64,000 nt of DNA from Natrarchaeobius halalkaliphilus (GTDB taxonomy: Archaea; Halobacteriota; Halobacteria; Halobacteriales; Natrialbaceae). The stretch lies in the NCBI RefSeq assembly GCF_003841485.1, contig NZ_REFY01000005.1:248001-312000 (forward strand), in the 5' to 3' direction. Below, one piece after another: positions 16,058 to 40,929 of the stretch. The position numbers were made by a program, and so were the translations under genes. The notes beneath the pieces were generated by a model that saw nothing but the letters and a program-made list of their open reading frames with translations, did not search any database and was not told where the DNA came from. Each line of letters begins with the position of its first letter. The first letter of the stretch is position 1.

Positions 16058-18034
16058 TCACTTCCCGTACAGCTCTTCGAGGAGTTTCTGCTCGGCGACT
16101 CGCAAGTGCTGGAGGAACGTTGAATGACTGATGCCGAGTGCGGTGGCGATCTCTTCTGCGGTGTTTTTTCTCGGTTGCTCGAAGTAGCCGTGATGGAAGG
16201 CGGCACTGAGTGCCGCCTCCTGTTTGTCCGTAAACGAATCGATATCTGCCGGCGAGTACTGGTTGTTCGTCGGCGGTAGCGACCTGAAGTCGGTAATCGA
16301 TTCGGTCGAGACGTCGAAACGTTGCGCGAGGTGGTTGACGGTCTCGGCCACGTCGATCGATCGCGGGAGTTCGATCGCGAGTTCGGCCCCGTCGATCCTG
16401 ACGACCGTTCGGTTGACGAGTGCACCGAGGGTCGCCAGCCGCGACTGTGGCGTCTCTTGTGTAACCACGAGCTGAAACCGGGCCGTCGTCCCCGACGAAT
16501 TGATCTCGGTGACCGATTCCACGGCCGGGTGCGAACGGGCAACCTCCCCGAAACGGTCGATCGGTACCCCGTCGACGGTGACGTACTGGCGCGTCCGGTA
16601 CGCGTCGTGTCGCGTCGTCCCATGAACGACGAACTGGCCAGAACGAGAACCAACGCGGCGAGCGATGTCGGTGAGGTAGTAGGCGTCTCCCTCGACGTTC
16701 AACTGGAGGGTGACCCGCTCGTTCGAAGAAAGCGCCTGTCTGGTCTTGACGTCGTGGATCGCGAACGCGAGGAGATCCGCGAGCGAACGCAGTAGCGACC
16801 GTTCCGTCTCGTCGAACTGCTCGAGTCGGGTGTGGTAGACGGCGAGGACGCCGTAGAAGACGTCCTCGTAGAGGAGGGGGATCGCCCCGCCGGACCGATA
16901 GCCGGCTCTGAGCGCGCGCTGTTGCCAGTCTGCGTCGAGTAACCCCGTGAGGTCGTTGACGAACTGGGGCTCTCGCAGTCGGGCGGCCCAGACGCTCGGA
17001 GCGGCATCGTCTCGGCCCGCGATATCGAAGGTTCGAGAGGAGACGTTGATCTGATCGTCGCCGGCGACAACCTGTGGAACGATCTCGGTATCGTCGACCG
17101 TTCCCGTCCAGGCGAGATCGTACCCGTACGTACAGAGCTGGGTGCAGATGTGCTCTTCCATCTCGGCTCTGGTTCGGGAATCGACCAGCGCTTGCTGAAT
17201 TGTCCGGTTCAGCTCCGTCTCCCACTCGAGCTTTCGCTTCCGTCGCCGCTGGGTGGTTCTGTCCCGGATAGTTACGAGCAGTGCCGGCGAGTCGTCGTGG
17301 GTGACCGGCCGGCCGGTCAGGTGACAGTGACGGACCGCTTCAGCCTCCGTGACGAGTCGAGCGTCGTGTCCCTGATCGGCCGGTGACTCGTACCAGTCGA
17401 GTAGTTTCGAGCGTACTCCAGACTGATCCGCATGGTGGAACAGGTCGGTCACCGGATACATCGTGTTGAGCTGTGAGTCGTCGTACCCCGACAGGTCGCT
17501 CAGCGCCCGGTTCCACACGACGAACGTGTCGTCCTGGACGATGGCGACAGCGCCCGGTATCTGTTCGGTCAACGTTTCGTGCTGGGTTTCCAGCTCGCCG
17601 AACAGGTTCCGGAGCCGGTACCGATCCACGACCGACGCGATCTTTCCGACGTACAGTGAGAGGGGGTCGTCGTCGCCACCGGTGATCAAATACGTGGTCG
17701 CGGGGTCTGTTGCCGCGACGCGTTCGAGTCGCTCGCTCCGGCGATCGGCGACGACGAGAAACGGCAGGTTTGGCTCCGTCTCTCGGACCCGTTCACGCAG
17801 TCGCAGTCCGTCGATTCGGCTGGTTCCGTCGGGGACGACTACGCAGTCGATTTCGGTCCCGTCCTGCAGTTGTTGCAGTGCTTCGTTCGGGCTAATCGCG
17901 ACCGTCACCGCCAGTTCGGGCTCGTGTCGCTGGAGTCGTTGCGAGAGGTACCCTGCCCACCGCTGGTCGTCGTCGACGAACAGGACCGCAATCGGGTCGT
18001 CGAGCAGCGTCTCGGTTCGATCGAAACCGTACAT
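16058..18034 (-). CDS. Bat-like regulator with degenerate receiver, PAS, GAF and HTH_10
   Basis: A 658-residue haloarchaeal sensor-regulator. Order: receiver-like domain (about 14-125), PAS-like (about 145-250), GAF-like (about 275-440, with the WTGTVDDTEIVPQVV type core), Bat-type domain (about 450-590) and a C-terminal HTH_10 (FTDKQEAALSAAFHHGYFEQ onward). In the receiver the expected phospho-acceptor Asp is Pro68, with Asp69 one position late. The frame extends 84 codons upstream over the preceding gene, but that part is antisense-like; the ATG at 18034 lies 10 bp after the membrane-protein stop. It is the last gene of the injection-system operon and may control it. Confidence 0.85.
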   Translation of the reverse strand: MYGFDRTETLLDDPIAVLFVDDDQRWAGYLSQRLQRHEPELAVTVAISPNEALQQLQDGTEIDCVVVPDGTSRIDGLRLRERVRETEPNLPFLVVADRRSERLERVAATDPATTYLITGGDDDPLSLYVGKIASVVDRYRLRNLFGELETQHETLTEQIPGAVAIVQDDTFVVWNRALSDLSGYDDSQLNTMYPVTDLFHHADQSGVRSKLLDWYESPADQGHDARLVTEAEAVRHCHLTGRPVTHDDSPALLVTIRDRTTQRRRKRKLEWETELNRTIQQALVDSRTRAEMEEHICTQLCTYGYDLAWTGTVDDTEIVPQVVAGDDQINVSSRTFDIAGRDDAAPSVWAARLREPQFVNDLTGLLDADWQQRALRAGYRSGGAIPLLYEDVFYGVLAVYHTRLEQFDETERSLLRSLADLLAFAIHDVKTRQALSSNERVTLQLNVEGDAYYLTDIARRVGSRSGQFVVHGTTRHDAYRTRQYVTVDGVPIDRFGEVARSHPAVESVTEINSSGTTARFQLVVTQETPQSRLATLGALVNRTVVRIDGAELAIELPRSIDVAETVNHLAQRFDVSTESITDFRSLPPTNNQYSPADIDSFTDKQEAALSAAFHHGYFEQPRKNTAEEIATALGISHSTFLQHLRVAEQKLLEELYGK

Positions 18035-18044
18035 ACCCGTTCGG

Positions 18045-18959
18045 TTATCCCTCCCACTGGACGACGTAGGTCTCACCGGTGCGCGAGTAGATAGAGGTGA
18101 CGTGTCGCTGGTAAAATCCCTCGATCGACGTATCGTCGGACTCGCTCTCGAGAACGAAGCCGTCGGGCAGTTTGACCGAGCGTTTTTCACCGGGACGGAA
18201 TCGGATGTCGGCGTTGAGTGCGTAGTTGGCCCCAGTTGCGTCCGTGATTTTCGCGTCGACGATCGAAATGGCGCTCTCAGCGTCATTCCGGAGGACGACC
18301 TCTCGCTCGTCGTTCCCGATCACCTCGAGGACGGAGATATCCTCCGACAGCAGTGAGCGCGTCTTTCGTCGACTGACGCCAAGTAACACCGCAGTTGCAC
18401 CGAGTACCGTTACGAGGAAGATCGCACCGAGTTGCCACTCTGGCCACAGCAGTTCGCGATGAGTTCCCATCGCGATCAATCCGAACCCGCTTCCCACGAA
18501 TCGCCAGAAGACGACCTCCGCGAGGACGGTCGAGACGACGGCTACCAGCACGCCACCAGCGAGTGCCCCGTAGCGCGTCGAGATGCGCATTCGCTGTCGA
18601 ATACCGAATCGAACGAGCAGCCCTTCGATGAGACCGGCCCTGTCGAGCGGGTACGAGACGGCGAACACCAGCGCCGAGACGGTCGTCGCACCGCCTGCAT
18701 ACATCGCGGCGGTCCACGCAGCGTCGATCCCATCGATCGTGTACAGCAGCCAACTACCGGCAGTGACCACGAACAGTGACAGAGTTAGAAACAGCATCTT
18801 CCCGGAGAACGTGTCGAGCGGGAGGATTGCCACCGTCGATGCGACCCGTTTGAGTAGCGAAAGAACGATTTTCGGAAACGAGAGTAGCAACTTGGGAAGC
18901 TTCTGAAGTTGTTTCCCGGCGTCGAGCAGCAGTTCGTACGTTCTGATCAAAACACTCAT
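18045..18959 (-). CDS. Membrane protein of the injection-system operon
   Basis: A 304-residue protein of unknown family. An amphipathic N-terminal 45 residues (KQLQKLPKLLLSFPKIVLSL) precedes four hydrophobic segments at about 50-70, 78-100, 125-150 and 168-190, then a roughly 110-residue soluble beta-rich C-terminal domain (ISVLEVIGNDEREVVLRN). The start ATG is 1 bp after the stop of the upstream gene, so it is tightly coupled to the particle genes. By analogy with membrane proteins needed for cytoplasmic CIS in Streptomyces it could dock the particle at the cell membrane; that role is inference. Confidence 0.72.
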   Translation of the reverse strand: MSVLIRTYELLLDAGKQLQKLPKLLLSFPKIVLSLLKRVASTVAILPLDTFSGKMLFLTLSLFVVTAGSWLLYTIDGIDAAWTAAMYAGGATTVSALVFAVSYPLDRAGLIEGLLVRFGIRQRMRISTRYGALAGGVLVAVVSTVLAEVVFWRFVGSGFGLIAMGTHRELLWPEWQLGAIFLVTVLGATAVLLGVSRRKTRSLLSEDISVLEVIGNDEREVVLRNDAESAISIVDAKITDATGANYALNADIRFRPGEKRSVKLPDGFVLESESDDTSIEGFYQRHVTSIYSRTGETYVVQWEG

Positions 18960-18960
18960 T

Positions 18961-20385
18961 CTATCCCTCCGGCTGGATTTCGTACTGTGGTTCGAGCAAC
19001 GTTGCAGTCTGACAGACGCGATCGAAGGCCGCGACGAGTTCGACGAACGAGCCATCGTCGGTCCGGACATCCTCGAGACTGGAGACCGTACGAGCGAACT
19101 GGTTGTAGCTCTCGTCCGTTGCGGCACGCTCGAGAACCCCCGTGAGCGACTCGAGGTCGTCCGTCACCGACGAGACGAACGCGCGGTACTCGGCTGCGTC
19201 GCGGTCGGCTTCCTCGGCGATCGCCTCCCGGGCAGCCTCGACGACCCCGAGCGATAACTTGCTGACCGCTCCCTGATGATCGAACGTCGCGGCGGCATCG
19301 TCGAAACACCGGATCGCCATCTTCAACGACTGGTAGGCGTTGAGCTCGGCCTGCGTCTGAAGCGCGTCCTGGAGTTGTTCGACGTCCGATCGAAGCGCCG
19401 CTCGCGTCGACTCGATCGACTCGTACAGGTCGTTTTCCGCCGTCTCGATCTCCGTCCGCAGCTCCGTTTCGGTCGACTCGAGGGCATCCTGAAACTCCGT
19501 TCGAACGGTGTCTTCCGTCTCGTCGATTGCCGTTCGAAGCTCCGAGACGTCGAGTTCCAGCCCCTGTATCTGGTTTGCAAACTGTCCTAGCTGATCGAGT
19601 TCACTCTCGAGGTACTCCACACCGGGGCGGCGCTCGTCACCACCGTGAGCGCCGTCGGTGGCTACCAGCAAGGACAGGAATAACGAGAACAGCATGTCGT
19701 TGTCGTAGACGAACGGGTGACGCTTCGTTTCGTCGTCGTCCACCTGCCACTCGCCGTCGGGAAGTCGTTCGAACGCTCCGAGAAACACTCCCGGGTTAGC
19801 CGAACTCGCTGCCCGTTCACGGTGGGCTTCGTGGTACGAATCGACAATGTGGTCAGCGAGGGTCGAGTATTCGTCTGCGTTATCCAGATCGGGTAAATCG
19901 ACGAGTGGTGGTGTCTTCCTCGAGTTTGGCGGTGTTTCGGTCGCGACGAGTTCGAATATCTCGAGCACTCGACTCTCCTGGGACTCTTCGCCGTCGGTTG
20001 CCTCGACGCCGGGAACCGGGACCGGGTCCTTCGACTCCTCGTCGTAGGTGATATACAGCGACACGTAATTGCCGTCTCCCGTCGGAATCGTCCGGGTGGT
20101 TGGCGTCCGAACGACGATCGGTCGACCGTCGCCGTCGATCGCAACGCCCGGGCCGATCGTCACGTGAAGTTCGCCGTCTTCGTAGTCGAAGTCGATGATC
20201 GATAGTCCCGAAACGATACCCGTTCCGGTAACCAGTCGGGTTACCGTCTCGAGCCGTGAGGCGTGGTATTTCTGCTCGGTCGACATGTCGTGAGCGGTCA
20301 TCAACTTCCCCTGGAAGTACCGGTTCCGCTCGAAGTGTTCGAGTTCGAATTCGTCGGCTGGTTCGGTCTGGTGTTCCTGAGTCAT
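18961..20385 (-). CDS. CIS accessory protein with RYFxGK motif and coiled coil
   Basis: A 474-residue structural protein. The N-terminal block FERNRYFQGKLMTAHDM...GTGIVSGLSI recurs, as I recall it, in proteins encoded beside CIS baseplate genes. It is followed by a beta-rich domain (about 65-150) and a long predicted coiled coil (about 265-350, DVSELRTAIDETEDTVRTEF...), then helices. This looks like a fibre-base or baseplate-associated oligomer. A TTG 17 codons upstream also opens the frame, but the ATG at 20385 is preferred. It is downstream of the gpI-like gene, the usual place of tail-fibre or accessory genes. Function not proven. Confidence 0.7.
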   Translation of the reverse strand: MTQEHQTEPADEFELEHFERNRYFQGKLMTAHDMSTEQKYHASRLETVTRLVTGTGIVSGLSIIDFDYEDGELHVTIGPGVAIDGDGRPIVVRTPTTRTIPTGDGNYVSLYITYDEESKDPVPVPGVEATDGEESQESRVLEIFELVATETPPNSRKTPPLVDLPDLDNADEYSTLADHIVDSYHEAHRERAASSANPGVFLGAFERLPDGEWQVDDDETKRHPFVYDNDMLFSLFLSLLVATDGAHGGDERRPGVEYLESELDQLGQFANQIQGLELDVSELRTAIDETEDTVRTEFQDALESTETELRTEIETAENDLYESIESTRAALRSDVEQLQDALQTQAELNAYQSLKMAIRCFDDAAATFDHQGAVSKLSLGVVEAAREAIAEEADRDAAEYRAFVSSVTDDLESLTGVLERAATDESYNQFARTVSSLEDVRTDDGSFVELVAAFDRVCQTATLLEPQYEIQPEG

Positions 20386-20502: not shown

Positions 20503-22698
20503 TCACTGAATTCTGGTGTCCGAGCCGAGTGTTGACGTCTCGACGTCGAACTTGGTCTCGGGAACGTACGTGTTGATCCCGAGGTAGGTGTTCGTGTTCA
20601 CGCGAAAATTCTGCCGAAGGCGTTCGACGTAGACGTCCGAGTAGACTGGCTTGTCGGCATTGATGATGGTCTTGATAACACCGACATGTCTATCGGAGAG
20701 TGTCGGCCAGATCAGGACCTGGAAGCGTCGCGGATGACCAAACAGGTCCGCGTACTGCTGGCGCAAGGCGTCGTTTTCGATCCGTTCGACGTCCGAATAC
20801 TCGCGGATGATGATCTTGTTTTCGTGGCTAATCCCGATACGTTCGTCGTAGTCCGCGAGCCGCTCGCGCACGTCGTCCTCCGTCAGGTAACCCGCTTCTA
20901 CGAGGTCGGTCAGCTGATCGGCCGCACGCCCGCGAGCGCGGTCCCACGGCGGTTCGTGATGCTCGACGTGATCGAAATAAAGCCCGATCAGTTCGAGCAT
21001 CCCGCGCCTGGTTCCACGAAGCTTGTAGAGCTCCGTCGAGCGCTCGAGGAGTTCCCGCTGGGCGGTCTCGGGCCAGGCACGGCCGAGAACTGCTTCGCCG
21101 CCGAACCACCGGTTGAGCCACGGGAAGTAGTCTTTGGGAATCTCGTAGGCGTCGATGTACTGCGTGCTCCGGCTGATGTTCGCCTCGATATCGGTAAACA
21201 CCGTTTCGAAAATCGAGAGATAGCGGGCCAGAAAATCGTCTCGCTGCCCGGCCTGCCGGTAGATATCCGGCAGATACCGGAGGTACGATTGGCGCGGACA
21301 GTAAGCTTCGAGCGCGTGAATCTGCGGCGACGAGTGGCGATTTCCAACCAGCCGAACCATCACGTGCAGGTATCGCCCGGTTGCATCCTCGAGGAGCAAA
21401 TCGTCCGGTCCAGTCGCCCCCTGGGTATCCCCACGGTTCTCGAAGACGAACCGCAATTGTTCACGAGCCTCGTCGATCCACGTGTCAGCCCGGCCAACCG
21501 AGAGATCTGAGACGACGTCCGCGAGGGCCGTCGGTGTGTACTCGATGACGTCCCAGAGGCCATCGATACCGACGCGACGCAACTGTTCTCGGTGCTCGTC
21601 GGTCAGTCCCGGAAGGTCCGCGATCGGTTGGGTGTAGCCGTCTTCGTTCGACGCGTAGTACCGGACGTCGACGTGATTTCCGGAGGTGGCACGTGAGATG
21701 TCGAACGCGATCCGATGCCATTCCAGATCGCGTTCACCGGAATCGAAACGACCGACGAGGTAGCCCTCGTACCGAGTGTTCTCCGGATCCTTCCGGTTTT
21801 CCCAGTCTCGTTCGAGCACCCACACGCGCCCGGCCGCAGTTCGAGCATAACTACGGTGGTGATCGCCAGCCGTCCCCGCGGTCGCACTCGAGAGCGACGT
21901 CAACTCGACCGACAGTTCTGTAGCGACCAGTACGTCGTTCTGGCCCAGATCGTAGACGACAACCATCGGATCGCCATTCTGGTCCCCGTAGAGGACGAGT
22001 TGTTCGGTCGTCTGAGCGGCGAGCAGTTCGGGACGAAAGCCGTCCGGGAGATCGAGGTCGATGGCCGTGCGGTCCTCGGAAGGGGACCCGGAGTTCTCGG
22101 ATCGATACACGACGGGACCCGTCTCGGGTTCGTCGAGGACGTACAGCGTGTCGTCCGCGTCGAGCGCGAGGTCGAGGGGGTTCCTGAGGGACCGTGCAAC
22201 GACGTCGGGATCGGCACCCGGCTCGATCGCGAGGACGAATCCGGCGTCGCCGTCGCCGCCGGCGTCGAGCACGTACAGTCGGCGTTCGCCGCCGACCGCT
22301 CCGACGGGCGCGACGACCCCGGTCGTGGTCCGCTCGAGGTACCTGGTTCGCCGCGAGAAGACGCCAACGTCCCCATCACCGTCGATGAGGTAGAACTGTT
22401 TCCTCGTCGCCCCTATAGCCGTGGGGACGCCGAGGGAGTCGCTGTCGTGGAGGTCGAGTCGACTTGTTCGGTCCTCGCCATCGAGGTAAACCTCGAGATC
22501 ACCGCTCTCGCCGAGCAAGAGCAGGTTTCCGTTCGGAACCGGGGCGAAGTCGGCGCACTCGACCTCGAGTGGAAACTGGTGTACTGTTGGCGTCGTGGCC
22601 AGGGTGACACTCCGATCGGCCGTGTCGACGTTTCGTCCCGCCCATCGGTTCCAGTCCGCCCGTTGCTCCGCGCTGAATAGTGCAAATTCGTCGTGCAT
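20503..22698 (-). CDS. Phage tail protein I-like baseplate protein with propeller-like and HhH regions
   Basis: A 731-residue protein, far longer than phage gpI (about 180). The first roughly 350 residues look like repeated beta blades (NGNLLLLGESGDLEVYLDG, DDTLYVLDEPETG). Residues about 360-413 form a helix-hairpin-helix type segment (LPGLTDEHREQLRRVGIDGL). Residues about 473-575 hold the gpI core (YLRYLPDIYRQAGQRDDFLA, YFPWLNRWFGG, TRRGMLELIGLYF). It should link the wedge to fibres. TTG 22713 and GTG 22710 also open the frame; ATG 22698 leaves a 4-nt gap after the upstream stop, the spacing seen elsewhere in this operon. Confidence 0.85.
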   Translation of the reverse strand: MHDEFALFSAEQRADWNRWAGRNVDTADRSVTLATTPTVHQFPLEVECADFAPVPNGNLLLLGESGDLEVYLDGEDRTSRLDLHDSDSLGVPTAIGATRKQFYLIDGDGDVGVFSRRTRYLERTTTGVVAPVGAVGGERRLYVLDAGGDGDAGFVLAIEPGADPDVVARSLRNPLDLALDADDTLYVLDEPETGPVVYRSENSGSPSEDRTAIDLDLPDGFRPELLAAQTTEQLVLYGDQNGDPMVVVYDLGQNDVLVATELSVELTSLSSATAGTAGDHHRSYARTAAGRVWVLERDWENRKDPENTRYEGYLVGRFDSGERDLEWHRIAFDISRATSGNHVDVRYYASNEDGYTQPIADLPGLTDEHREQLRRVGIDGLWDVIEYTPTALADVVSDLSVGRADTWIDEAREQLRFVFENRGDTQGATGPDDLLLEDATGRYLHVMVRLVGNRHSSPQIHALEAYCPRQSYLRYLPDIYRQAGQRDDFLARYLSIFETVFTDIEANISRSTQYIDAYEIPKDYFPWLNRWFGGEAVLGRAWPETAQRELLERSTELYKLRGTRRGMLELIGLYFDHVEHHEPPWDRARGRAADQLTDLVEAGYLTEDDVRERLADYDERIGISHENKIIIREYSDVERIENDALRQQYADLFGHPRRFQVLIWPTLSDRHVGVIKTIINADKPVYSDVYVERLRQNFRVNTNTYLGINTYVPETKFDVETSTLGSDTRIQ

Positions 22699-22702
22699 CG
22701 TC

Positions 22703-24658
22703 TCACTCACCAATTGTCACTCTCACGTTTCGTTCCGTCAGCGCGAACAGCGCGCTGTCGTCGATCAGGACGTCTCCGTACTCGTTGATTCGGCGTTCAC
22801 CGCGTGCGGTCACCGAGACCGTTTCGACAGCACCGATGCCGGGTAGATCCTCGATGATGTCGACGACGTCGGAGATGTACAGCGGGTGACCAAATGGCCA
22901 GCCACCGGCCTCGATCGGATGGAGGAACGTCAGCAGCGTCTCGGTGATCGCCGCGGTCAACTCCGCGTCGGTGTAACCCGACAGCGCCGAAACGACGACA
23001 TTGACGTCGACGTCGACGTACGTCGGTTCCGAGACGGACACGACGTCAGTGACGAGTCGTGTCCGATCGAGGTGTGTCTGGACTGCGTCGACGAACCCCT
23101 CACTCGGTTTCGGTCTCGTCTGACGACTGTAGGGGACCACGACGACGTCGATTTCCCGATAGTCCCGACCGTCGACGGTCCGTTCGGTGGCCGTCGCGTG
23201 TGCCCGTCCGAACCGCAACCCGGGCGTATGGGTCGCAACGTAGACGAAATCGTCGAGAGTCGCCGCCCGGTACGGTCGCTTGAAATCGCGCTTGAACCGG
23301 TCGATCGCATCGTCGATCGGTTCCATATCGCGCCCTCCGTCGGCGGGGCCGTTGGGCGTAAGCGTGACCTCCGGGAGCGGTGTCTCTCCAAGCCTCGCGT
23401 CCTCGCGAAGGAACTCCCACCTGGAGTTTGCCGAGACGTTCCCTTCGGTCCCCCCACCGTGAACGTATTCCGTCGCGACGACGCGCGCTCTGACGGGCGG
23501 CTTCCGACCGTTTTCACCGTCACCGAACCTGATCGAGCCGCGCATATGGTCGAGCACGTAGTGGGTTCCGAGCGAATTCGAACGATCGAGATCGTCGATT
23601 TCGGTCCATCGCTCACCGTCGACGTCGATCTCGGCGTTCAGCACCGGAGCGTTCTGGAAAAAGAACTCCTGGTTCGACTCGTAGGTCGTTTCGATCGAAC
23701 CGTCCGTGCGTTCGAGCACTTCGTTCTCGACGGTGTTGCGATGGCTGACCTCGAGCATGTTGAGTCGAACGGTGTCGAACTGGGGCGGGAACTCGTACCC
23801 CGAGCGCAGGATTCGACACCGGATCCAGTACAGTCCCTGATCCTGTTCGAGGATGCCGATCGGATCGCGCTGGCGAGTCCTGTTCGCACCGTCCGGCGGT
23901 CGCTCGAGGACGACGTCGCCTCCGTCGTAAAACGCGTTAGCTCCGTCCTCGAGAACCGAGAGCGATTCCCAGGCGTCGTCGTCCGTCCAGCGCTCGTAGG
24001 CCTTCGGGAACTCCCAGACGAGTTCGACGGAGGGATCGAACGACCCCTCCATCTCGCCGTGACTCGCGGGCTGGGGAAGATCGTCGTCGTACAGATCGAA
24101 CGTCAGCGTCAGCGTCTGGGCGTCGGCAAACGGGTCGCCGTCGAACCCGACGTAAAGGGCGTCACCGACACTCGGGTCGTCGCCGAACGCCTGGAAGCGA
24201 GTCTCACCCGTCGTCGCTTCCGCGGTGGTGTTGACGATGTCCCCGCCTGCATAGGTGACGATCTTGTCGATTGTGGCTTCAGTGATCGTCGTCGGTGAGA
24301 CTGTTTCGAAGGCCTTGACGTCACCGGAGCCGTCGTCTGCGACGAGCGTTGCTCCCGCAGGAATCGTCTGGCCGTCAGCACCCGACGGGGGCTCGACGCC
24401 GACTCGTACCCGGGCGGACGTCGGGAGCCGGCGCTTGACCCCGAGCAACCGGAGGTACTTTTCGCGGTGTTCGTCGGTAACCCGATTGAGCTGATAGGTA
24501 TACGATTCCGCGAGCCACGTCAGCAACTCGAGGATCGCGATGCCACTGTCGTGAGCGTTGTGGTCGGTCCACTCGTCGGTGTAAATTGGAAGCTGTCGTT
24601 TCGCCTCCGAGAGAACATCTTCGAACTCACGGTCGTCGAGGTCCGGTATCTCGACCAT
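22703..24658 (-). CDS. Baseplate J-like wedge protein (second)
   Basis: A 651-residue gpJ/gp6-like baseplate protein. Start block MVEIPDLDDREFEDVLSEAK, then HDSGIAILELLTWLAESYTYQLNRV, is typical of the N-terminal domain of CIS baseplate proteins. A beta domain with YWIRCRILRSGYEFPPQF follows at about residue 280, then the J core (SIRFGDGENGRKPP; FKRPYRAATLDDFVYVATHTPG) and a C-terminal GHPLYISDVVDIIEDLPGIG block. The first base of its ATG overlaps the stop of the larger J-like protein (ATGA type), indicating coupled production of the two wedge partners, as with Afp11/Afp12-type pairs. Confidence 0.88.
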   Translation of the reverse strand: MVEIPDLDDREFEDVLSEAKRQLPIYTDEWTDHNAHDSGIAILELLTWLAESYTYQLNRVTDEHREKYLRLLGVKRRLPTSARVRVGVEPPSGADGQTIPAGATLVADDGSGDVKAFETVSPTTITEATIDKIVTYAGGDIVNTTAEATTGETRFQAFGDDPSVGDALYVGFDGDPFADAQTLTLTFDLYDDDLPQPASHGEMEGSFDPSVELVWEFPKAYERWTDDDAWESLSVLEDGANAFYDGGDVVLERPPDGANRTRQRDPIGILEQDQGLYWIRCRILRSGYEFPPQFDTVRLNMLEVSHRNTVENEVLERTDGSIETTYESNQEFFFQNAPVLNAEIDVDGERWTEIDDLDRSNSLGTHYVLDHMRGSIRFGDGENGRKPPVRARVVATEYVHGGGTEGNVSANSRWEFLREDARLGETPLPEVTLTPNGPADGGRDMEPIDDAIDRFKRDFKRPYRAATLDDFVYVATHTPGLRFGRAHATATERTVDGRDYREIDVVVVPYSRQTRPKPSEGFVDAVQTHLDRTRLVTDVVSVSEPTYVDVDVNVVVSALSGYTDAELTAAITETLLTFLHPIEAGGWPFGHPLYISDVVDIIEDLPGIGAVETVSVTARGERRINEYGDVLIDDSALFALTERNVRVTIGE

Positions 24659-28833: not shown

Positions 28834-28835
28834 GG

Positions 28836-32543: not shown

Positions 32544-33175
32544 AGCGGCGGAAGAGAGAGTTTGGTCCCCGGCGGGATCTCTCGAGGATTCTCGAGTTCG
32601 TTGGCCTCGGCGATCGTCCGCCAGTGGGATGGATCACCGTACTCCGCTGCCGCGATGAGCCAGAGCGTGTCACCTTCGGACACCGTTTTGAGCTTCGTTT
32701 TGTCCGTCGATTCGTGTTTGATCCGTCGCTTTTGCTGTTTCGGATCTGCGTGCTGTTTGAATGTGACGTCAACCCAGGCCCGCACGGGCGTTCCGTCGGG
32801 CCGAAAGCGCGTAAAGCGTTTGTCGGCTTCGACGACGATGGATTTGAACGCCAGGCCGTTTCCCCAGACGAACCGACACGATGGCGGAGCGTGGAGTTTG
32901 CCGTCGACTGCCATCAACGAGTCGATCACGTCCGTGTACTCCGTTCTGACGTCCGCCTGCGTCTCGGTGGTATCGAAGAACAACTCAACAGTAAGCGTAT
33001 CCGCAACGCCGTTCGTGAACTGCTGTATCGGAGCGTTGAGTGCCGTTCGATGCTCGCCGTATCCGGCCTGCCTGTTCAACTGATACTCATTGGGATTGAA
33101 CGCACACTCGAGTTTCGTCCCGGCGTTGCTACCGTCGAGAATCGTAATGTACGCTCGCTCTAGAGACCCGCTCAT
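32540..33175 (-). CDS. LysM-containing baseplate protein (Afp7/Pvc7-like)
   Basis: A 211-residue protein. The N-terminal domain has the CIS pattern LECAFNPNEYQLNRQAGYGEH...ADTLTVELFFDTTE and W-V-D-V-TFKQHADPKQQ. A C-terminal LysM module (about 163-210, TVSEGDTLWLIAAAEYGDPSHW...PGTKLSLP) is typical of the T4 gp53-like family, where LysM clamps neighbouring wedges rather than binding peptidoglycan, which haloarchaea lack. Its ATG follows the stop of the disordered protein with no gap. Confidence 0.9.
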   Translation of the reverse strand: MSGSLERAYITILDGSNAGTKLECAFNPNEYQLNRQAGYGEHRTALNAPIQQFTNGVADTLTVELFFDTTETQADVRTEYTDVIDSLMAVDGKLHAPPSCRFVWGNGLAFKSIVVEADKRFTRFRPDGTPVRAWVDVTFKQHADPKQQKRRIKHESTDKTKLKTVSEGDTLWLIAAAEYGDPSHWRTIAEANELENPREIPPGTKLSLPPL

Positions 33176-36100
33176 CTACAGCCCCCTTCTCTCGCGGTCG
33201 ATTTGTCTTTTTCGTTCGGTTTTCCGATAGATCTTCTCGACGAGATCGTCGATGAGGCCCCTCGACTGGAGCACCGCCTCGAGGTCCACCTGATTGACAC
33301 CGTCTCGACGCCGTGGCTGGACAAGACTTGCGTCGTCTCGCGGCTGCCGGGGCTCGTTTGTCGCACCTGGATACGCGGCCGATTCTTCGATGGCACCAGT
33401 CGGTTGCGGAGGGTCCGATACCGTCGGTTCGGAACGCGTCGTCCCCGTTCGAACGGACTCGCTCGACGGATCTGGAACAACTGGAGGAGTGGCGTCTGGA
33501 TGGACCACTCGTTCGCTGGACCGAGCCGGCCCCCTCACCGGAGGGAGTTTCGCGTGAGTGAACGCCGGATCGGGCTGCCCGTTCACGGCTCGCCTTCGAC
33601 CCGACCGCCTACCTGTGGTCGATTCGTGGACAACAGTTCGTGTCAGCTCGTCCGTCGACCGGTCAACGGCGTCGCGGCGCTGGATTGCTCCCGTCAGTGA
33701 CCTCCATGCGGGTCGTTTCGGTAACAGGTCGGGACGGTCGCTCGCACCTGATCGCTTCCGCGTGGACGGCTCGTCCTCCGAACGCGAGACGGATGGTGGA
33801 GTGATGTCGTCGCGGGTTCCCCGTGACCGTCGGGTGCCGTTCCACGGAGCCACAGTGCTCCGGTCGGTGACGAACACGGTGCCGGTCCCTCTTCGAAGAG
33901 TACGCACCGGGTCTTCCCCGGCGGCCATCGAGTCTAGCGGTGCCGAACGCTCTCGAAAGTCACCGCTCGAGTCCGCGTCCGAGTCGACGCCCCCGTGCTC
34001 GTGAACGTCATTACGTGACGACGAACGCCGCTCGGCTGGTACCCGCCCTCTCTGTGGAGTCAGACCGGGAGCGGTCATCGGGCTTGCCGTGGTGACGACA
34101 TGTCGCCGCTGCACCGAACGGACGAGTTGGCCGCGCGAACGCGGCTCCTCGACGTCCCCCAACGATCGAGCGGCAACGCCCCGGGACGAGACGGCAGCTG
34201 CCGCAACTTCCACTCCTCGAGACGTCGCTCGAGAAGGACTCTCGGGTTCCTGACGGGGAGTTTCCGCCGCGAAGTCTCCATTCGCTGTCTCGAGGGGGTC
34301 GGTGGTCTTGGGCCGCGGCGATCGGTCGCCCTCGACACTTCGGGACCGGGGGGTTCGATGGGTGTGCGAGCTGTACAACCGGCGTGAGTCGCCGCTAGCT
34401 CGATCACTGCGAGCGGGTGGTTCCGGCGAGGACGTTGTGATCAGCGTTCCGGCCGGCCCCCGATCGGATTTCCGTATCCCGCTCCCGGTTCGATTCACCT
34501 TCCTTGCGGAGTCGCGTGGTGGTGTGTATCGTTGCTGGACGGCCGCGGTAAACCGCGCTCGCACCCGTTCGACCGAGTAGGCATCGGGGACGTCCCCCAC
34601 CGGAAGCTCGATGGGATGGTCCCCGGTATCTCCCGTGGAACCGCTGTGGATTGCGGGCTTCGATCCGAGAGTGCGATGTGAACGCGAGTGACCGGCCTCG
34701 ACCGGGGCGGATTCAGCCGTGGTCGGCCGGGGTGAGTGACCGTGGGCACTCGCACGTCCAGACGGGGCGGGGTTCTGGCCGTATTCGGCTCGGGAGCTCG
34801 CTGATTCGGGGCCTGATTCGGTGTCAAATAACGGGGCGGATGCAAGGCCGGGCACAGGAATGTACAGCTCTCGAAGCGGGTACGGAGCCGACGAACCGGC
34901 GCGGGTGCTTGCGTCACGGCGACCAGGTATCGAACCGACGCGAGTGGGTGCACGACGGCGACGAATTGACCGCGCGAAGGTGGTCCCCGATCGACCGCTC
35001 GGCGAGACGGATCGGTCTCCGGCAGGAACCGATGTGGCGGCCAACTCCCAACCACCGATCGAATGCGTCGTCGGCCCCTCGAACTCCGGGCGGGAACGAT
35101 CGAGAGGGGGACGAGCAACAGACTCGGTCGCGTGAGCTTCCGCTGGCTCTGACCGGGAGCGTTCGCTGGAACCGCCTGGTCGTAATCCGGGTTGTTGAGC
35201 GGCGCCTCGAGGAAGGTTTCGTGAGTTGTTCGGCTCCGGCACATGGTTCGATGCTGCCAGTTCACCCCCTGACTTCGAGCCCGACGCGGACGACACTCGG
35301 GTCGATCTCGCATTCGACCCGTGAGAGAGAGCTACATTCGCGGGTACACCGGAACCAGCGGTTCGACGGCGTCGAATAGAACGGGCGAACGATTCACCGG
35401 TAGATCGCGCCGAAACGCGGTCTGGTGGGTTCCCTGACACCGACGCGTCCCGTCCGTCCCACTCGTCCTTTCGGACGGGACTGGCGGTACCCCGCACGCC
35501 GTCGACGTGGTGGCGTGACGCCCATCGCCGCGAGCGTGACCCAGGAGACGACCGAACGGTACCCGTCCTCGATCCGCCTTCGCGTCCGCTTCCGCGTCCA
35601 GTACCGCGTGACGGTGCTCTCGTCCGTGCAGTCTGCGTTCTCCTCTTGGTCCCCTGCCTCGGCTCCCCCTCGCGTCGGTTCGTTGCCTCTCCCGACCGAG
35701 CTGGGTCCACCGGAAATTCGTCGGTCTCCACGTGGCGCGACTCCGTAATACGTCCTGGAACGGTTCCGTACGCCGTCCGCTTCGAACCGGTCCAGCGTCG
35801 CGAGGTGTTCGCACGCACTCGAGAGCTGGACGAGCGGCCGTGGACCACTGGGATGTTGGCTGAACCGTTCGACCCATCCGTACCGATAGTGTCGGCAACG
35901 CCCTGCAAGTCAGATTCGGGTGGATCGATCGGACCGACTCGACCGTCCGTACCGCCCGAATCAACTGGGCCGAAGGTATCGAGCACTCCTGGCGCGGTCG
36001 CACCGTCCGACGAACCCGTTGCTTTTGGGAATCGGTACGAGGGAGAACGCGTCGAGGCGTTGGAACTCGAGAGTGACTGGCGCTGAATTCGCCGACCAGT

Positions 36101-36466
36101 TTTTTCCCGTCGAACCGATTGCGAGCGTCGATGGGGTGAACGAGAGGCGTGATCGGCGAGGGAATCGTGCCGTGAACTCCCCCATCGGTCGGCGTCTTCG
36201 TCGTGATCCTCGAAGAACTGCAGTTGGGTCATCGGCACTTGCGGGATTTGCCTGACGCCGATGGGAAGCGGCTGCCGTTTTTTCGACGAACCGAACGGCT
36301 CGGACCGGACCATCGAGTTCCCGTGACGACGGACAACTGACTCGAGGGGGCCGTCGCGACCGACGCCAGCGACGTCACGGTCGACAGTTCCGAGAGCGTC
36401 ATTGGGGACCTGAGAAGCGATCGAGCGCACCGTAAGGAGGTCCGGCACGCGATCAGTCGACGTCAC
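33176..36466 (-). CDS. 1096-aa Arg/Ser-rich disordered protein with spaced RRR motifs
   Basis: I recognise no folded domain except a short C-terminal helix (VDLEAVLQSRGLIDDLVEKI, then RKTERKRQIDRERRG). The rest is low-complexity Ser, Arg, Gly, Pro and Thr. By hand count there are about 159 Arg and 20 Lys, a very basic protein in an acidic proteome. A motif of the form Phi-x-R-S/A-Phi-R/Q-R/Q-R recurs, its hydrophobic anchors at residues 364, 501, 643, 785, 857 and 928, so steps are 137, 142, 142, 72 and 71. It sits between tube and LysM genes, where phages encode chaperones and tape measure. The start is GTG 36466; the first 100 residues have normal haloarchaeal codons. Its role is unknown: ruler, scaffold or cargo adaptor. 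Confidence 0.72.
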   Translation of the reverse strand: MTSTDRVPDLLTVRSIASQVPNDALGTVDRDVAGVGRDGPLESVVRRHGNSMVRSEPFGSSKKRQPLPIGVRQIPQVPMTQLQFFEDHDEDADRWGSSRHDSLADHASRSPHRRSQSVRREKTGRRIQRQSLSSSNASTRSPSYRFPKATGSSDGATAPGVLDTFGPVDSGGTDGRVGPIDPPESDLQGVADTIGTDGSNGSANIPVVHGRSSSSRVRANTSRRWTGSKRTAYGTVPGRITESRHVETDEFPVDPARSGEATNRREGEPRQGTKRRTQTARTRAPSRGTGRGSGREGGSRTGTVRSSPGSRSRRWASRHHVDGVRGTASPVRKDEWDGRDASVSGNPPDRVSARSTGESFARSIRRRRTAGSGVPANVALSHGSNARSTRVSSASGSKSGGELAASNHVPEPNNSRNLPRGAAQQPGLRPGGSSERSRSEPAEAHATESVARPPLDRSRPEFEGPTTHSIGGWELAATSVPAGDRSVSPSGRSGTTFARSIRRRRAPTRVGSIPGRRDASTRAGSSAPYPLRELYIPVPGLASAPLFDTESGPESASSRAEYGQNPAPSGRASAHGHSPRPTTAESAPVEAGHSRSHRTLGSKPAIHSGSTGDTGDHPIELPVGDVPDAYSVERVRARFTAAVQQRYTPPRDSARKVNRTGSGIRKSDRGPAGTLITTSSPEPPARSDRASGDSRRLYSSHTHRTPRSRSVEGDRSPRPKTTDPLETANGDFAAETPRQEPESPSRATSRGVEVAAAAVSSRGVAARSLGDVEEPRSRGQLVRSVQRRHVVTTASPMTAPGLTPQRGRVPAERRSSSRNDVHEHGGVDSDADSSGDFRERSAPLDSMAAGEDPVRTLRRGTGTVFVTDRSTVAPWNGTRRSRGTRDDITPPSVSRSEDEPSTRKRSGASDRPDLLPKRPAWRSLTGAIQRRDAVDRSTDELTRTVVHESTTGRRSGRRRAVNGQPDPAFTHAKLPPVRGPARSSERVVHPDATPPVVPDPSSESVRTGTTRSEPTVSDPPQPTGAIEESAAYPGATNEPRQPRDDASLVQPRRRDGVNQVDLEAVLQSRGLIDDLVEKIYRKTERKRQIDRERRGL

Positions 36467-36556: not shown

Positions 36557-36685
36557 TCGGGGCCGTGAGGAGGGCCGATTTGGCCACTGGGATCGCCGTA
36601 CCCTCCGAGCGTGGCGCTCGTGTCCGGCAAAATCGAGCCTTACTGTGAAGAATTCGGTACGCAACAGACGGTTCCGCGAGAGGAG

Positions 36686-37129
36686 TTAGGCCATCTCGCG
36701 ATCCATCTTGTCGTAGGAGATGGTAATGATGATCTTGATCGCTTCGCCGCCACTGAGCGTGTCTCCGTACTCGTACTTGACCATCCGTGCGTTGGTGAAT
36801 TTCCAGCGGACGACGGGGTTGTCGCTGGGGTCCTTGGCCGTGACGCTAATCACCTGCTCGTGTTCGTCGTCGCTGAAGTCTCGCATCGCCTCCCACCACT
36901 TGTCGATCGCCGATTTCCCGCTTTGGGCGTAGAGTTCCGCGGTGAAGGTTCCCCCAAAGTCGGGTTGATCGGCGTGTTTTATCGGGTGTCGTGGTCCCGA
37001 GCCAACCTGGTGTTCGATGACCGGAATGTTCCGTTTCGGTAGGTTCACCCGGAAGAACTGAGGCACTTCTCGACCACCAAAGTCAACGTCGAAGTCATCG
37101 GATTCGATCGGTGTCGATGTAACTGGCAT
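36686..37129 (-). CDS. Tail tube protein (gp19-like), main tube candidate
   Basis: A 147-residue inner tube protein. It shows the gp19/Pvc-tube pattern: FFRVNLPKRNIPVIEHQVGSG, FTAELYAQSGKSAIDKWWEAM, RWKFTNARMVKYEYGDTLSGG and a final strand IKIIITISYDKMDRE. Tube rings stack through these beta hairpins. The frame runs on 24 codons upstream over the preceding gene, but the ATG at 37129 is 4 nt after that gene's stop and matches the usual N terminus. Confidence 0.88.
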   Translation of the reverse strand: MPVTSTPIESDDFDVDFGGREVPQFFRVNLPKRNIPVIEHQVGSGPRHPIKHADQPDFGGTFTAELYAQSGKSAIDKWWEAMRDFSDDEHEQVISVTAKDPSDNPVVRWKFTNARMVKYEYGDTLSGGEAIKIIITISYDKMDREMA

Positions 37130-37133
37130 CGGA

Positions 37134-37574
37134 TTACTCTTCCTCCATGTAGTCGACGGAGATGACGAACATCTCGGTCGCCGTGTCCGACCGCATGGCA
37201 CACAACGTCGGTGGATGATACTCTTTGACCCACGTTCCGGTGAACTTCAGCGTGGAAATCGTCGTGGATTCCTGATCTTTGATGAAGATCGTGAGCGGCT
37301 TTTTGATCGCGCTGGTGTCCCCGGTTGTCGCTGCCAGATCGTGTTCGTCGTACAGCTTGGTGGACATGTCCGCCTTGATGTCGCGGTGGACTACGAGGTC
37401 GCCGAACAGCAACCTGCCCTGGGTTTCCTGTACCGGGTCCGGGTTCCCGTTGTCGTGGGTGATCTGCTCGATTCGTTGCTCGGGAAGTTCGATGTCGGTG
37501 ACCGTTGGAATCTCATCGCCGTCGTGTTCAAAGGTGAAATACGACGACTTGAGAAGTCTGATATCTGCGGACAT
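37134..37574 (-). CDS. Tail tube-like protein, second copy
   Basis: A 146-residue gp19-family protein (YFTFEHDGDEIPTVTDIELPEQRIEQI; LLFGDLVVHRDIKA; LKFTGTWVKEYHPPTLCAMRSDTATEMFVISVDYMEE). It is shorter and more divergent than the next tube gene, so it may form a tube-initiator or adapter ring rather than the main tube, as inferred for accessory tube paralogues in PVC/Afp. It starts 4 nt after the sheath stop. Confidence 0.85.
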   Translation of the reverse strand: MSADIRLLKSSYFTFEHDGDEIPTVTDIELPEQRIEQITHDNGNPDPVQETQGRLLFGDLVVHRDIKADMSTKLYDEHDLAATTGDTSAIKKPLTIFIKDQESTTISTLKFTGTWVKEYHPPTLCAMRSDTATEMFVISVDYMEEE

Positions 37575-37578
37575 TGGA

Positions 37579-39312
37579 TTATGAGTCTCCGGTCCACTGA
37601 CCGATTCTGAAGATCACGAACTCAGCCGGCTTCACCGGAGCTACACCGATCTCACAGATCAGCCGTCCGTTGTCGATATCGTCTTGGGTCATCGTCGATC
37701 CCTTTCCACAGTCGACGTAAAATGCCTCGCTGGCCGAGGTGCCCATCAACGCACCATCGCGCCACTGAGTCGTCAGGTACTGTTCGATTGTCTGAGTCAC
37801 TCGAGCCCACAGGTCCTGGTCATTCGGTTCGAAAACCGCCCACTGGGTTCCCTCGTCGATCGATTGCTTGAGGAACAGGAACAGACGACGAACGTTAACG
37901 TACTTCCACTCGGGATCGCTCGAAGTCGTCCGAGCGCCCCAAACGCGAATCCCACGCCCCTGGAAGCTCCGGATGCAGTTGATTCCCTTCGGATTCAGGA
38001 TGTCCTGTTCAGCTTTCGTCAGGTCGACCTGTAGCGACATCGCACCGCGGACAACCATGTTCGCAGGTGCTTCGTGGACGCCGCCTTCGTTGTCGTTTCT
38101 GGCGTAAATTCCGGCGACGTGACCGCCCGGCGGAACCAGTTCCTGAACCCCTTTTTCAGGGTGCATCACGTTGATCCAGGGGTAGTAATACGCCGCGTAC
38201 GTCGAGTCGGCTGGCGTCTCGTGATCGGCCACCGGATCGGGGTTTTGCTCGGCTTGTAGCACCGCAATCCGTTCTTTCATGTTCTCACAGTGGGCGACGA
38301 GCGCTTCCGTCAGCCCGGGAACGTCGTTCTCATCGGGCGCGCAGACGATCGAAATGTTTGAGATCTCTTCGAACGCAGCGAGGCCCGTTCGCTGCCCGGG
38401 CGTTCCGTCGCCCTCATAGTCACCAACCGTTACCCCGTCGCCGCCGTCGGTGAGGAGTTGCGCTTCGCTCGCGGCTTTAACTTCCTCGAGCAGTTCGGGC
38501 TTGTTCTGATCGGTATCGACGTCGAGTTCCTCGGCGACTTCGACCAGTTCGTCCTTGGTCATGTCCTCGAGTTCGTCCCCGTCGGGGAGATCCGGACCCT
38601 CGCCGCCATCATCGCCATCGTCGTCGCCACCGTCGGCCCCGTTTTCGCCACCGTTGACGCCGCCATCGGTGCTTGCAATCTTGAGCCAGACGGTCTGGTT
38701 CTCCGGCCGGCCGTCGCCCAGTTTTTCGATCTCGATGAAGTTGGACGAGCCCTCGATCGCGCTCTCGTAGTACTGGGTCGACCCTTCGTCAGCATTGATC
38801 TCGTCGAATCGTTCTTCGTTCGTCGGCATCGGGTCCGGCTCGTCGCCGTCGGGGTCTTCGACGTCGTCGGGATCCGCATCCGACCAGTAGCGGACGGTGA
38901 GGCCGAACACCGTGTTGTCCGAAGCGGACATCGGTGCGTCGGTAACCGTTACGGCGACCTGTCCACCCCAGTCACCCGGCCCGACCGCTCGAGCGCCGAT
39001 GACGTCGTCTCCATCGTCGTTACTCAGCGTCGCAGTACCGACGTCGGAGCGGGAAGCGTCCGTGACGCGCCCGACGAACGCTCTACTGCCGCCGTTTTTG
39101 AAGAAGCCGTCGATAGCGTGAGTGAGAAACGAATCGTCGACGTAGCCGCCGAACTTTCGTTTGTAATCGTTGAATCCGGTCACGAGCTGCGGTTTGAGCG
39201 GCCCGCGTTCTGTCTGTCCGAGGAATCCTGCTGTGCTGGTGCTTACGCCTTCGACGGATTTGGATCCTTCCGTCTCTTCGACGTAGACACCCGGTGAGAG
39301 GTATTCTGGCAT
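37579..39312 (-). CDS. Contractile sheath protein with Rho_N/SAP-like insert
   Basis: A 577-residue sheath subunit. N-terminal MPEYLSPGVYVEETEGSKSVEGVSTSTAGFLG and the C-terminal half (YYYPWINVMHPEKG; PPGGHVAGIYARND; GINCIRSFQGRGIRVWGARTTSSDPEWKYVNVRR; VAPVKPAEFVIFRIGQWTG) are diagnostic of the tail sheath family. Between them is a variable outer domain with an acidic Gly/Asp linker (215-246) and a helical module at 247-281 (EDMTKDELVEVAEELDVDTD) that looks like a Rho N-terminal/SAP fold. Only one sheath gene is present, whereas PVC/Afp have three. The insert would face outward on the particle. Confidence 0.92.
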   Translation of the reverse strand: MPEYLSPGVYVEETEGSKSVEGVSTSTAGFLGQTERGPLKPQLVTGFNDYKRKFGGYVDDSFLTHAIDGFFKNGGSRAFVGRVTDASRSDVGTATLSNDDGDDVIGARAVGPGDWGGQVAVTVTDAPMSASDNTVFGLTVRYWSDADPDDVEDPDGDEPDPMPTNEERFDEINADEGSTQYYESAIEGSSNFIEIEKLGDGRPENQTVWLKIASTDGGVNGGENGADGGDDDGDDGGEGPDLPDGDELEDMTKDELVEVAEELDVDTDQNKPELLEEVKAASEAQLLTDGGDGVTVGDYEGDGTPGQRTGLAAFEEISNISIVCAPDENDVPGLTEALVAHCENMKERIAVLQAEQNPDPVADHETPADSTYAAYYYPWINVMHPEKGVQELVPPGGHVAGIYARNDNEGGVHEAPANMVVRGAMSLQVDLTKAEQDILNPKGINCIRSFQGRGIRVWGARTTSSDPEWKYVNVRRLFLFLKQSIDEGTQWAVFEPNDQDLWARVTQTIEQYLTTQWRDGALMGTSASEAFYVDCGKGSTMTQDDIDNGRLICEIGVAPVKPAEFVIFRIGQWTGDS

Positions 39313-39788: not shown

Positions 39789-40247
39789 TCAGCTGGTTCG
39801 GGCGTCGAGTGACTCGTAGGCGAGTTCGAGCCGTTCGATCGAGAGTCCGGTTTCCTCTCGGTCGGATCGTGCGTTGGCGACGAGTTCCGGACCATCCCAC
39901 CGCACTGGATAGGCATTGATCAGGACCCACGTCCATCTGGTTCGATCCTCCCGATCTTTCATCGCAACGCTCACTTTCGATCGGACGTCGGCTCTCGCCC
40001 CCGACAGCGATTCCATGATCCAGTCGAGAAATCCGTCGTCGTCCGTCACTCCGCGATGAAGCGTGACGTTCGAGTAGGCCACGTCGCTCGGAAACGTATG
40101 CGTAACTTCGTGGAGTCCACCCTCACGATACTCGAGGACGTTCGATTCGGCACCAAGTCCTGAAATCCTGGTGAAGCCACCGACCATGTCGTCGTCGATG
40201 CGTACTTCGTACGTGAAGTTCGTGTACGGGCTGTCGTGTCCGGTCAT
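39789..40247 (-). CDS. Tail tube-like protein, first in operon (Pvc1/gp54-type position)
   Basis: A 152-residue gp19-family protein: SPYTNFTYEVRIDDDMVGGFTRISGLGAESNVLEYREGG, HRGVTDDDGFLDWIMESLSG and VLINAYPVRWDGPELVANARSD. It starts 5 nt after the stop of the DUF6760-type frame. It is likely to be a tube terminator/initiator ring because a separate main tube gene follows the sheath. Confidence 0.85.
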   Translation of the reverse strand: MTGHDSPYTNFTYEVRIDDDMVGGFTRISGLGAESNVLEYREGGLHEVTHTFPSDVAYSNVTLHRGVTDDDGFLDWIMESLSGARADVRSKVSVAMKDREDRTRWTWVLINAYPVRWDGPELVANARSDREETGLSIERLELAYESLDARTS

Positions 40248-40252
40248 AGGTG

Positions 40253-40498
40253 TCAGATCATCTCCTCGAGGTTCGCGACGGGGAGGTCATCGACCCGGTG
40301 ATCGGGATCGAGTGAGGTATCCGAACCGCCCGCCTCGTTTTTCTGTTCGTTTATCTGGCTAATGTTGCGGCACCAGCGCTGTCGTTCCCAGTGGGGAAGC
40401 TCGAGTATCTCCTGGCGCGACCAGTTGAAGTAGTACGCGACGAACGCGATTTCTTCGTAGAGCCGCTCCGTTGGATACGGGTCGATTCCCGTTACGAG
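40253..40498 (-). CDS. DUF6760-type frame, reached by -1 frameshift from the chaperone
   Basis: 81 codons reading PYPTERLYEEIAFVAYYFNW, then SRQEILELPHWERQRWCRNI, a pattern I recall for small CIS/phage proteins encoded directly after the tail-assembly chaperone. In-frame, the upstream stop is the TGA at 40523-40521, and between it and the conserved block there is no ATG, GTG or TTG. The frame overlaps the end of the chaperone in the -1 phase, across a GGGAAAC heptamer. The expected product is a chaperone fusion of about 225 residues made by a fraction of ribosomes. An unusual start codon is the alternative. Confidence 0.75.
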   Translation of the reverse strand, partial: LVTGIDPYPTERLYEEIAFVAYYFNWSRQEILELPHWERQRWCRNISQINEQKNEAGGSDTSLDPDHRVDDLPVANLEEMI

Positions 40499-40519
40499 TT
40501 TCCCGGTTCGCTGTCCTCC
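40478..40519 (-). promoter_or_regulatory. Candidate programmed -1 frameshift signal
   Basis: Three elements in order on the minus strand. GGAGG (40519-40515) can pair with the 16S anti-Shine-Dalgarno. After 10 nt comes the heptamer G GGA AAC (40504-40498), of the X XXY YYZ type and in phase with the chaperone codons GGA and AAC. After 5 nt comes a hairpin, ACGGG with CCCGT around a 6-nt loop. The chaperone TAA is at 40494-40492. Spacing resembles the E. coli dnaX signal, and the heptamer resembles lambda GGGAAAG. Confidence 0.7.
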
Positions 40520-40929
40520 TCAGCAGTTGTCTTTTCACCCTGGTCGACATTCAGTGGTTCGTCAGGTTCAATCGACGAGGTCGAGTCGGCGGTTTCGTCA
40601 TCGGGGACCGTCACGTCCTCGAAGTCTGTGCGGCCGTCGTTGATTCGTTCGTACAGTTCCTGAAGATACTCCAGGTCCGGAACGAACAGAGACTCGACGA
40701 CGTCGGGTGACACCTCGTCAACGGTGCCAATCTGTGTGGTGACGCGGGAAAGCAGAAGGACGGTCAGATACGATGCGTTCTCTTGCACGCGAGGATCGTT
40801 CAGCGGTTTGATTTCGTCCGCAGCAGTCGCAAGACGCATCCGGCCGTCCCTGTGAACGGTACCCTCGTCGTCGACGTATCCTCTGGGTAGTGTGAACTCG
40901 AATTCCGTCTGTAGGCTTGGCTGAGACAT
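40492..40929 (-). CDS. Tail-assembly chaperone-like protein, first gene of CIS operon
   Basis: A 145-residue protein with the conserved CIS/phage pattern TEFEFTLPRGYVDDEGTVHRDG...RLATAADEIKPLNDPRVQENASYLTVLLLSRV and SLFVPDLEYLQELYERIN, followed by an acidic tail. It occupies the place of phage tail-assembly chaperones (lambda gpG-like role). The frame opens at ATG 40959, but the only good TATA box (40956-40967) lies over that ATG and predicts transcription from about 40935, so I use ATG 40929. Its last codons carry the -1 frameshift signal. Confidence 0.85.
   Translation of the reverse strand: MSQPSLQTEFEFTLPRGYVDDEGTVHRDGRMRLATAADEIKPLNDPRVQENASYLTVLLLSRVTTQIGTVDEVSPDVVESLFVPDLEYLQELYERINDGRTDFEDVTVPDDETADSTSSIEPDEPLNVDQGEKTTAEEDSEPGNS

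Follow-up and report, generated by a model that had tools for sequence, protein, structure and literature searches.

A haloarchaeal contractile injection system of a third archaeal lineage, probably membrane-anchored, with a giant protein in the plug slot and without the usual cargo-loading genes

Can a contractile injection system (CIS) do without the genes that load its cargo, and what fills the place of the tape measure that such systems in haloarchaea appear to lack? These questions are raised by a locus of the haloarchaeon Natrarchaeobius halalkaliphilus, situated in bases 248001–312000 of contig 5 (NZ_REFY01000005.1) of a 3.51-Mb assembly (GCF_003841485.1; 12 contigs, 98.7% complete); this whole stretch of 64,000 nucleotides is called the window below, and positions are counted from its first letter. 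The reading that we favour, and hold to be reasonably probable, is that the locus encodes a membrane-anchored haloarchaeal CIS (an "archaeal type VI secretion system", T6SS) of a third lineage, equipped with a giant protein in the plug slot and operating without ATP-driven loading. An earlier, sequence-only reading of the same stretch had described a near-complete haloarchaeal CIS, and this was borne out, with Pfam and NCBIfam matches supporting the components that it named (the chaperone-like gene being recognised by its counterparts in relatives). Its remark that the function of such loci is essentially unexplored is outdated: the CISs of the relatives Halogeometricum borinquense and Haloferax elongans are membrane-bound machines of contact-dependent killing (PMC11566945).

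Judged from its genes, the locus is almost certainly a CIS with complete structural parts, as sheath, gp19 tube, LysM initiator, hub, spike, PAAR, gp25, baseplate J and cap are all present. The three tube genes, sheath, LysM, hub, spike, PAAR, gp25, two J-like proteins and the gpI-like protein claimed earlier were all recovered by Pfam, and the gene previously called "accessory" proved to belong to the Cis13 family (CIS13_fam, 3e-136). All core reading frames are open, no stop or frameshift being seen in them, and the intergenic spacing of −11 to 476 bp agrees with the tight packing noted before. That inventory missed three genes, namely the cap, a DUF6760-like gene and a 1,096-aa protein at 33176–36466, where it had left a blank, and the proposed single 25-kb operon (16058–40929) holds for the core, with the cap lying outside it on the plus strand and the membership of the regulator unproven. 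Read from 40929 downwards on the minus strand, the order is as follows, the cap being given last:

40492–40929, minus strand: tail-assembly-chaperone-like protein (48–74% identity to the same-slot gene in relatives' clusters; no Pfam or NCBIfam family match)
40253–40495, minus strand: DUF6760-like small protein (51% identity to the DUF6760 protein of the H. larsenii cluster)
39789–40247, minus strand: tube protein A, gp19 (PF06841, 1.8e-29)
37579–39312, minus strand: sheath, Cis2 (PF04984, 2.1e-23; sole copy genome-wide)
37134–37574, minus strand: tube protein B, gp19 (PF06841, 5.6e-9)
36686–37129, minus strand: tube protein C, gp19 (PF06841, 4.7e-9)
33176–36466, minus strand: 1,096-aa Arg/Ser-rich protein, predicted to be disordered, with a conserved C-terminal box; proposed Cis6-like plug (box profile, coding tests)
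32540–33175, minus strand: LysM tube initiator, Cis7 (CIS_tube plus LysM, PF19266, 9.3e-30; PDB 7aeb, the AlgoCIS LysM protein, 3.8e-21)
31372–32370, minus strand: hub, GPD-like, Cis8a (PF05954, 6.9e-14)
29249–31366, minus strand: spike with gpV OB domain, a large insert with a CARDB-like Ig domain, and a long beta-roll (PF04717, 4.9e-18)
28836–29147, minus strand: PAAR tip, Cis10 (PF05488, 2.8e-17)
28426–28839, minus strand: gp25 baseplate wedge, Cis9 (PF04965, 2.9e-27)
24658–28419, minus strand: Baseplate_J protein 1, Cis11a (PF04865, 1.4e-11; TIGR02243, 7.8e-60)
22703–24658, minus strand: Baseplate_J protein 2, Cis11b (PF04865, 2e-14)
20503–22713, minus strand: gpI/Cis12-like baseplate protein (Tail_P2_I, PF09684, 3.7e-7; CIS12_fam 487 bits, under the cut-off of 860)
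18961–20385, minus strand: Cis13-family protein (NCBIfam CIS13_fam, over cut-off)
18045–18956, minus strand: anchor-family membrane protein, about four helices and a cytoplasmic domain (held-out six-helix anchor profile)
16058–18034, minus strand: bacterio-opsin-activator-like regulator, membership unproven (HTH_10 3.8e-21, BAT 9.6e-21)
46968–47672, plus strand: cap or tail terminator, Cis16 (PF14065 Pvc16_N, 1.9e-33)

The CIS_tube family was found in 46 of 391 haloarchaeal genomes, the window's included, and the other 45 clusters, together with a named set from a genome collection, served for comparison. In a tree of Baseplate_J protein 2, the window, an uncultured Halobacteria metagenome-assembled genome and Natronobiforma cellulositropha form a three-member lineage (100/100), placed outside a 31-member clade (100/100) that holds H. 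elongans; this sequence-based placement makes the locus a well-supported third lineage within the archaeal T6SS-like system, one without the loading module. Searches of IMG/VR found no closer relatives. The core genes, the anchor family and a giant protein in the plug slot (2,365 aa in H. elongans) are shared with the archaeal T6SS of H. borinquense and H. elongans, and the window's sheath is 55–56% identical to that of Haloferax (H. borinquense was outside the sequence comparison). It differs from them in forming a separate lineage, in a shorter anchor encoded after cis13, in the absence of Cis15 and eCIS_core, in a spike about 460 aa longer and in the displaced cap. Among the scanned window proteins none corresponds to TssJLM or ClpV of bacterial T6SS i–iii, for which no genome-wide search was made.

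The absent genes are those of cargo loading. A Cis15 profile matched all of the other 45 CIS-bearing haloarchaea (E <1e-50, up to 1,079 bits; the match is split over pieces in one genome of 85% completeness) and eCIS_core (DUF4157) was found in 44 of these 45, whereas the window's assembly contains neither, the only hits of the Cis15 profile being generic AAA domains of up to 100 bits. The AAA+ ATPase reported as absent from the window is therefore missing from the entire assembly, and the search of the rest of the genome for DUF4157-type effectors that had been proposed returned none, so that both a Cis15-type ATPase and a DUF4157 effector elsewhere in the genome were rejected; of the two earlier suggestions, an ATPase-independent system or genes lying elsewhere, the former is consistent with what remains. 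Of the 55 Cis15 loci checked, at least 35 have an eCIS_core gene within 3 kb, and the two therefore form a module, probably lost together. These searches make the loss of Cis15 and eCIS_core from this genome very likely. Cis15 genes often stand beside eCIS_core in islands away from the structural operon, at times two or more per genome (G105:C1:669280-672376, G005:C1:2064189-2067177), and N. cellulositropha (G104), the nearest named relative, has 34 eCIS_core matches against zero in the window's genome.

The lack of a Pvc15-type ATPase also separates this genome from those with extracellular CISs (eCIS) of the PVC/Afp type. PVC itself assembles without Pvc15 but remains unloaded (PMC11495950). 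By analogy, the window's system may be mechanically complete yet without the usual cargo, and with both ATP-driven loading and the corresponding cargo class gone, the machine probably delivers only a load borne by the spike or tube, or a cargo of unknown kind. The spike, of 705 aa, is the longest of the 47 compared; the CARDB-like part of its insert, a type of domain that other haloarchaeal proteins often have, was found in 162 of the 391 genomes, and the insert may be a payload, a surface binder or neither. The natural loss of both the ATPase and the eCIS_core class in one intact locus sets the mechanical core apart from the module for cargo loading, and provides a naturally occurring minimal system.

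Between the last tube gene and LysM lie 3.3 kb that form one open frame of 1,096 codons, whose stop abuts the LysM start (0 bp). Arg makes up 14.5% and Ser 13% of the encoded protein, Cys is absent and hydrophobic residues are few; from this composition the protein is predicted to be disordered. A comparable frame occurs in every haloarchaeal cluster fetched, with lengths of 381–2,365 aa, of which two are minima (the G345 frame reaches the contig end and that of H. larsenii NCIM 5678 the edge of the fetched stretch), and these frames end in a helix-like box of the form DVDRVVERLYRKLERKxRIERERRGL. In the 391 haloarchaeal genomes a profile of this box matched once in each of the 46 CIS-bearing genomes, always adjoining LysM, and in one of the 345 without a CIS, there marginally (9.4e-5; G024:C2:519091-519174). 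The profile behind this count includes members of the set; a held-out version, built without the window's lineage and run against all frames of all clusters, gave 6.3e-6 for the window, 1.4e-11 for N. cellulositropha and 0.89 for the next unrelated frame.

The ratio of nonsynonymous to synonymous differences (pN/pS) is lowest in the giant-protein frame, out of six, for 17 of 19 pairs of relatives, an antisense frame being tied or 0.02 lower in the remaining two, and all 89 indels are multiples of three in seven of eight close pairs, the eighth aligning poorly over part of its length. On these sequence patterns the frame 33176–36466 is protein-coding, and its interpretation as a spurious out-of-frame reading frame of GC-rich DNA was ruled out by pN/pS, indel phase and one-to-one co-occurrence with the CIS. 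The window's protein is fast-evolving (pN/pS about 0.8 against the nearest relatives); it has no family match in Pfam, NCBIfam, PHROGs or PDB, and in the first three of these no known tape measure family resembled it; its disordered part shows no convincing regular repeats or periodicity. The idea that so Arg-rich a protein would be invisible to tryptic mass spectrometry found no support, as 64% of its residues fall in tryptic peptides of 7–30 residues. In the public annotation of H. larsenii, 177 aa (L022:1696-2229) are annotated inside a frame of at least 664 aa.

As regards the membrane protein of the operon, a profile built from the six-helix anchors of the other clade only, with the window's lineage left out, matched it at 6.1e-11 over its cytoplasmic domain. 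With a genome-wide profile that includes the N. cellulositropha anchor, the family was found in 34 of the 46 CIS-bearing genomes and in one without a CIS (G387:C68:188725-189840; no CIS_tube). The 12 CIS-bearing genomes without an anchor are exactly those with a giant protein of 381–625 aa, while anchor-bearing genomes have 1,096–2,365 aa; a long protein in the plug slot is therefore associated with membrane anchoring, in part through shared ancestry. Predicted structures for the anchor and for a portion of the spike insert (predicted local distance difference test scores of 50 and 39) were uninformative and were not used. A membrane-anchored mode of action is thus probable on the basis of sequence: the anchor would fix the baseplate at the cytoplasmic membrane and, on contact, contraction of the sheath would propel tube, spike and PAAR tip across the envelope and into an adjacent cell. 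The anchor homologue of G387 and the marginal box match of G024 are possible CIS remnants or fragmented clusters.

The gene of the giant protein occupies the slot of the Cis6 plug, directly upstream of cis7, in the window as in its relatives, although the plug has been reported as absent from the haloarchaeal cluster. The Alg6 plug, which is required for assembly, sits as a trimer in the spike cavity and is built of an N-terminal strand and a C-terminal helix with a flexible loop between them (PMC8894135); in Anabaena the Cis6 loop extends into the negatively charged tube lumen (PMC8894136). The window's protein resembles these plugs in its slot right before cis7 and in its flexible stretch followed by a C-terminal helix-like box, whereas its family is hundreds to thousands of residues longer and without detectable homology to a solved plug. 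A conventional tape measure is absent, as had been stated, but the gap is occupied by this candidate with a plug-like layout. By analogy, we think it fairly likely that the giant protein is a Cis6-like plug with a giant lumenal loop: its C-terminal helix would sit in the spike cavity, probably as a trimer, and nucleate assembly, and the Arg-rich flexible part would enter the lumen, which is negatively charged in other CISs, fill it and perhaps set its length. That it is in fact the length ruler of the tube is a more tentative proposal. A tape measure gene has been reported as missing in both haloarchaeal (PMC11566945) and Streptomyces (PMC12237407) systems, and a single-copy family in the right slot makes this puzzle approachable experimentally, through comparison of linker length with the sheath.

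The same layout upstream of LysM was seen in bacterial CIS loci, among them those of Paenibacillus, Cohnella, Nitrospirota, Omnitrophota and Aminicenantes, and in many of them the box profile scores significantly. Streptomyces clavuligerus has an almost unannotated frame of 1,381 codons upstream of its second tube gene and LysM (of which 71 aa, L229:24722-24937, are publicly annotated), with a box score of 0.52 that is not significant. Streptomyces CISs have one fixed particle length and no recognised tape measure gene (PMC12237407, PMC10066040), and the frame of S. clavuligerus gives them a likeness to the window's locus; they differ from it in being cytoplasmic and working with CisA. All S. 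coelicolor particles measure 268 nm, yet no tape measure gene has been found (PMC12237407), and the Streptomyces frame, if a true relative, would explain this uniformity. Taken very roughly, across species and without any fitting, the 268 nm of S. coelicolor over the 1,381 aa of S. clavuligerus would correspond to about 0.19 nm per residue, which would give the window's system an extended length of about 210 nm. It is a speculative extension that a single unrecognised family serves as combined plug and lumenal ruler throughout a CIS branch comprising haloarchaea, Paenibacillaceae, several candidate phyla and perhaps Streptomyces, with this genome also running without ATP-driven cargo loading; if so, a conserved C-terminal helix would anchor, a hypervariable disordered chain would fill the tube, and particle length would follow chain length.

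Several points weigh against a membrane-anchored CIS with a plug-like giant protein and no loading module. The assembly is a 12-contig draft, and a plasmid outside it could hold Cis15 or effectors; the window's anchor has about four helices and another position (after cis13) than the characterised anchors. No solved CIS chain was matched at E values of 10 or below (the box is short and divergent), the profile of the other clade does not match the N-terminal motif of the window's protein, and for H. borinquense no additional density in the lumen was reported (PMC11566945). A further reading is that the giant protein is itself delivered, as an effector or a carrier of cargo, in the manner of Tme of Streptomyces davawensis, a large, mostly disordered, tape-measure-related effector encoded directly upstream of the baseplate genes, which binds spike and tube initiator (PMC11126660). 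The likeness in size, disorder and gene position, and the fast evolution of the window's protein, speak for it; Tme has DUF4157, transmembrane and nuclease parts, none of which was recognised in the window's protein or family, and one copy per CIS-bearing genome, always beside LysM, is what is expected of a structural part. We regard this reading as rather unlikely, though the least so of those considered here.

The whole locus might instead be decaying and no longer functional, its ATPase and eCIS_core effectors lost where nearly all relatives retain them, its cap cut off from the operon by unrelated genes, and three other genomes of the genus being without a CIS. Against this stand intact and tightly spaced structural frames, free of any stop or frameshift seen in the core, and a spike that is elaborated and not reduced, so that decay seems unlikely. 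Release by lysis as an extracellular CIS of the PVC/Afp type, with which the locus shares core gene order and families as well as cap and PAAR, is improbable given an anchor-family membrane protein in the operon, the membrane-bound state of the characterised relatives (PMC11566945) and the lack of any recognised conventional tail-fibre gene, the CIS13_fam protein not being recognised as one. Slightly less probable still is an intracellular stress-triggered device like the Streptomyces CIS, which likewise needs a membrane protein, CisA (PMC12237407): a sensor-regulator does adjoin the operon, but it is not conserved beside the cluster, and the anchor belongs to a family tied to contact-dependent killing in haloarchaea. 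As for a general cellular AAA protein of the CDC48 or PAN type having taken over the role of Cis15, several AAA proteins match its ATPase domain, but through the generic domain only (the 100 bits given above, against up to 1,079), none adjoins the CIS, and the genome has no eCIS_core cargo to load; we give this the least credence. 

The membership of the regulator in the CIS is unproven because no counterpart was found beside the clusters of the two nearest relatives; by eye, 54019–55755 (plus strand) encodes a second regulator like it, with a receiver start and a helix-turn-helix end. The cap gene stands about 6 kb beyond 16058–40929 on the opposite strand, separated from it by a transporter, a carbamoyltransferase, an EamA protein and a methyltransferase (assigned by eye, except EamA), while in the nearest relative and in H. 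larsenii it lies inside the cluster, close to sheath or tube and ATPase. Adjoining the cap, an SMC-like ATPase gene (AAA_23; 48368–50527, plus strand) faces a gene for RdfA, rod-determining factor A (50534–51301, minus strand), together a cell-shape pair; as CIS parts these were rejected, no counterpart occurring near any other CIS cluster examined. At the other end of the window, 193–12096 is by eye a catabolic cluster unrelated to the CIS, with an agmatinase/arginase-like enzyme, a thiamine diphosphate (ThDP) enzyme, an IclR-like regulator, two amidohydrolase-like peptidases and a spermidine/putrescine-type ABC transporter.

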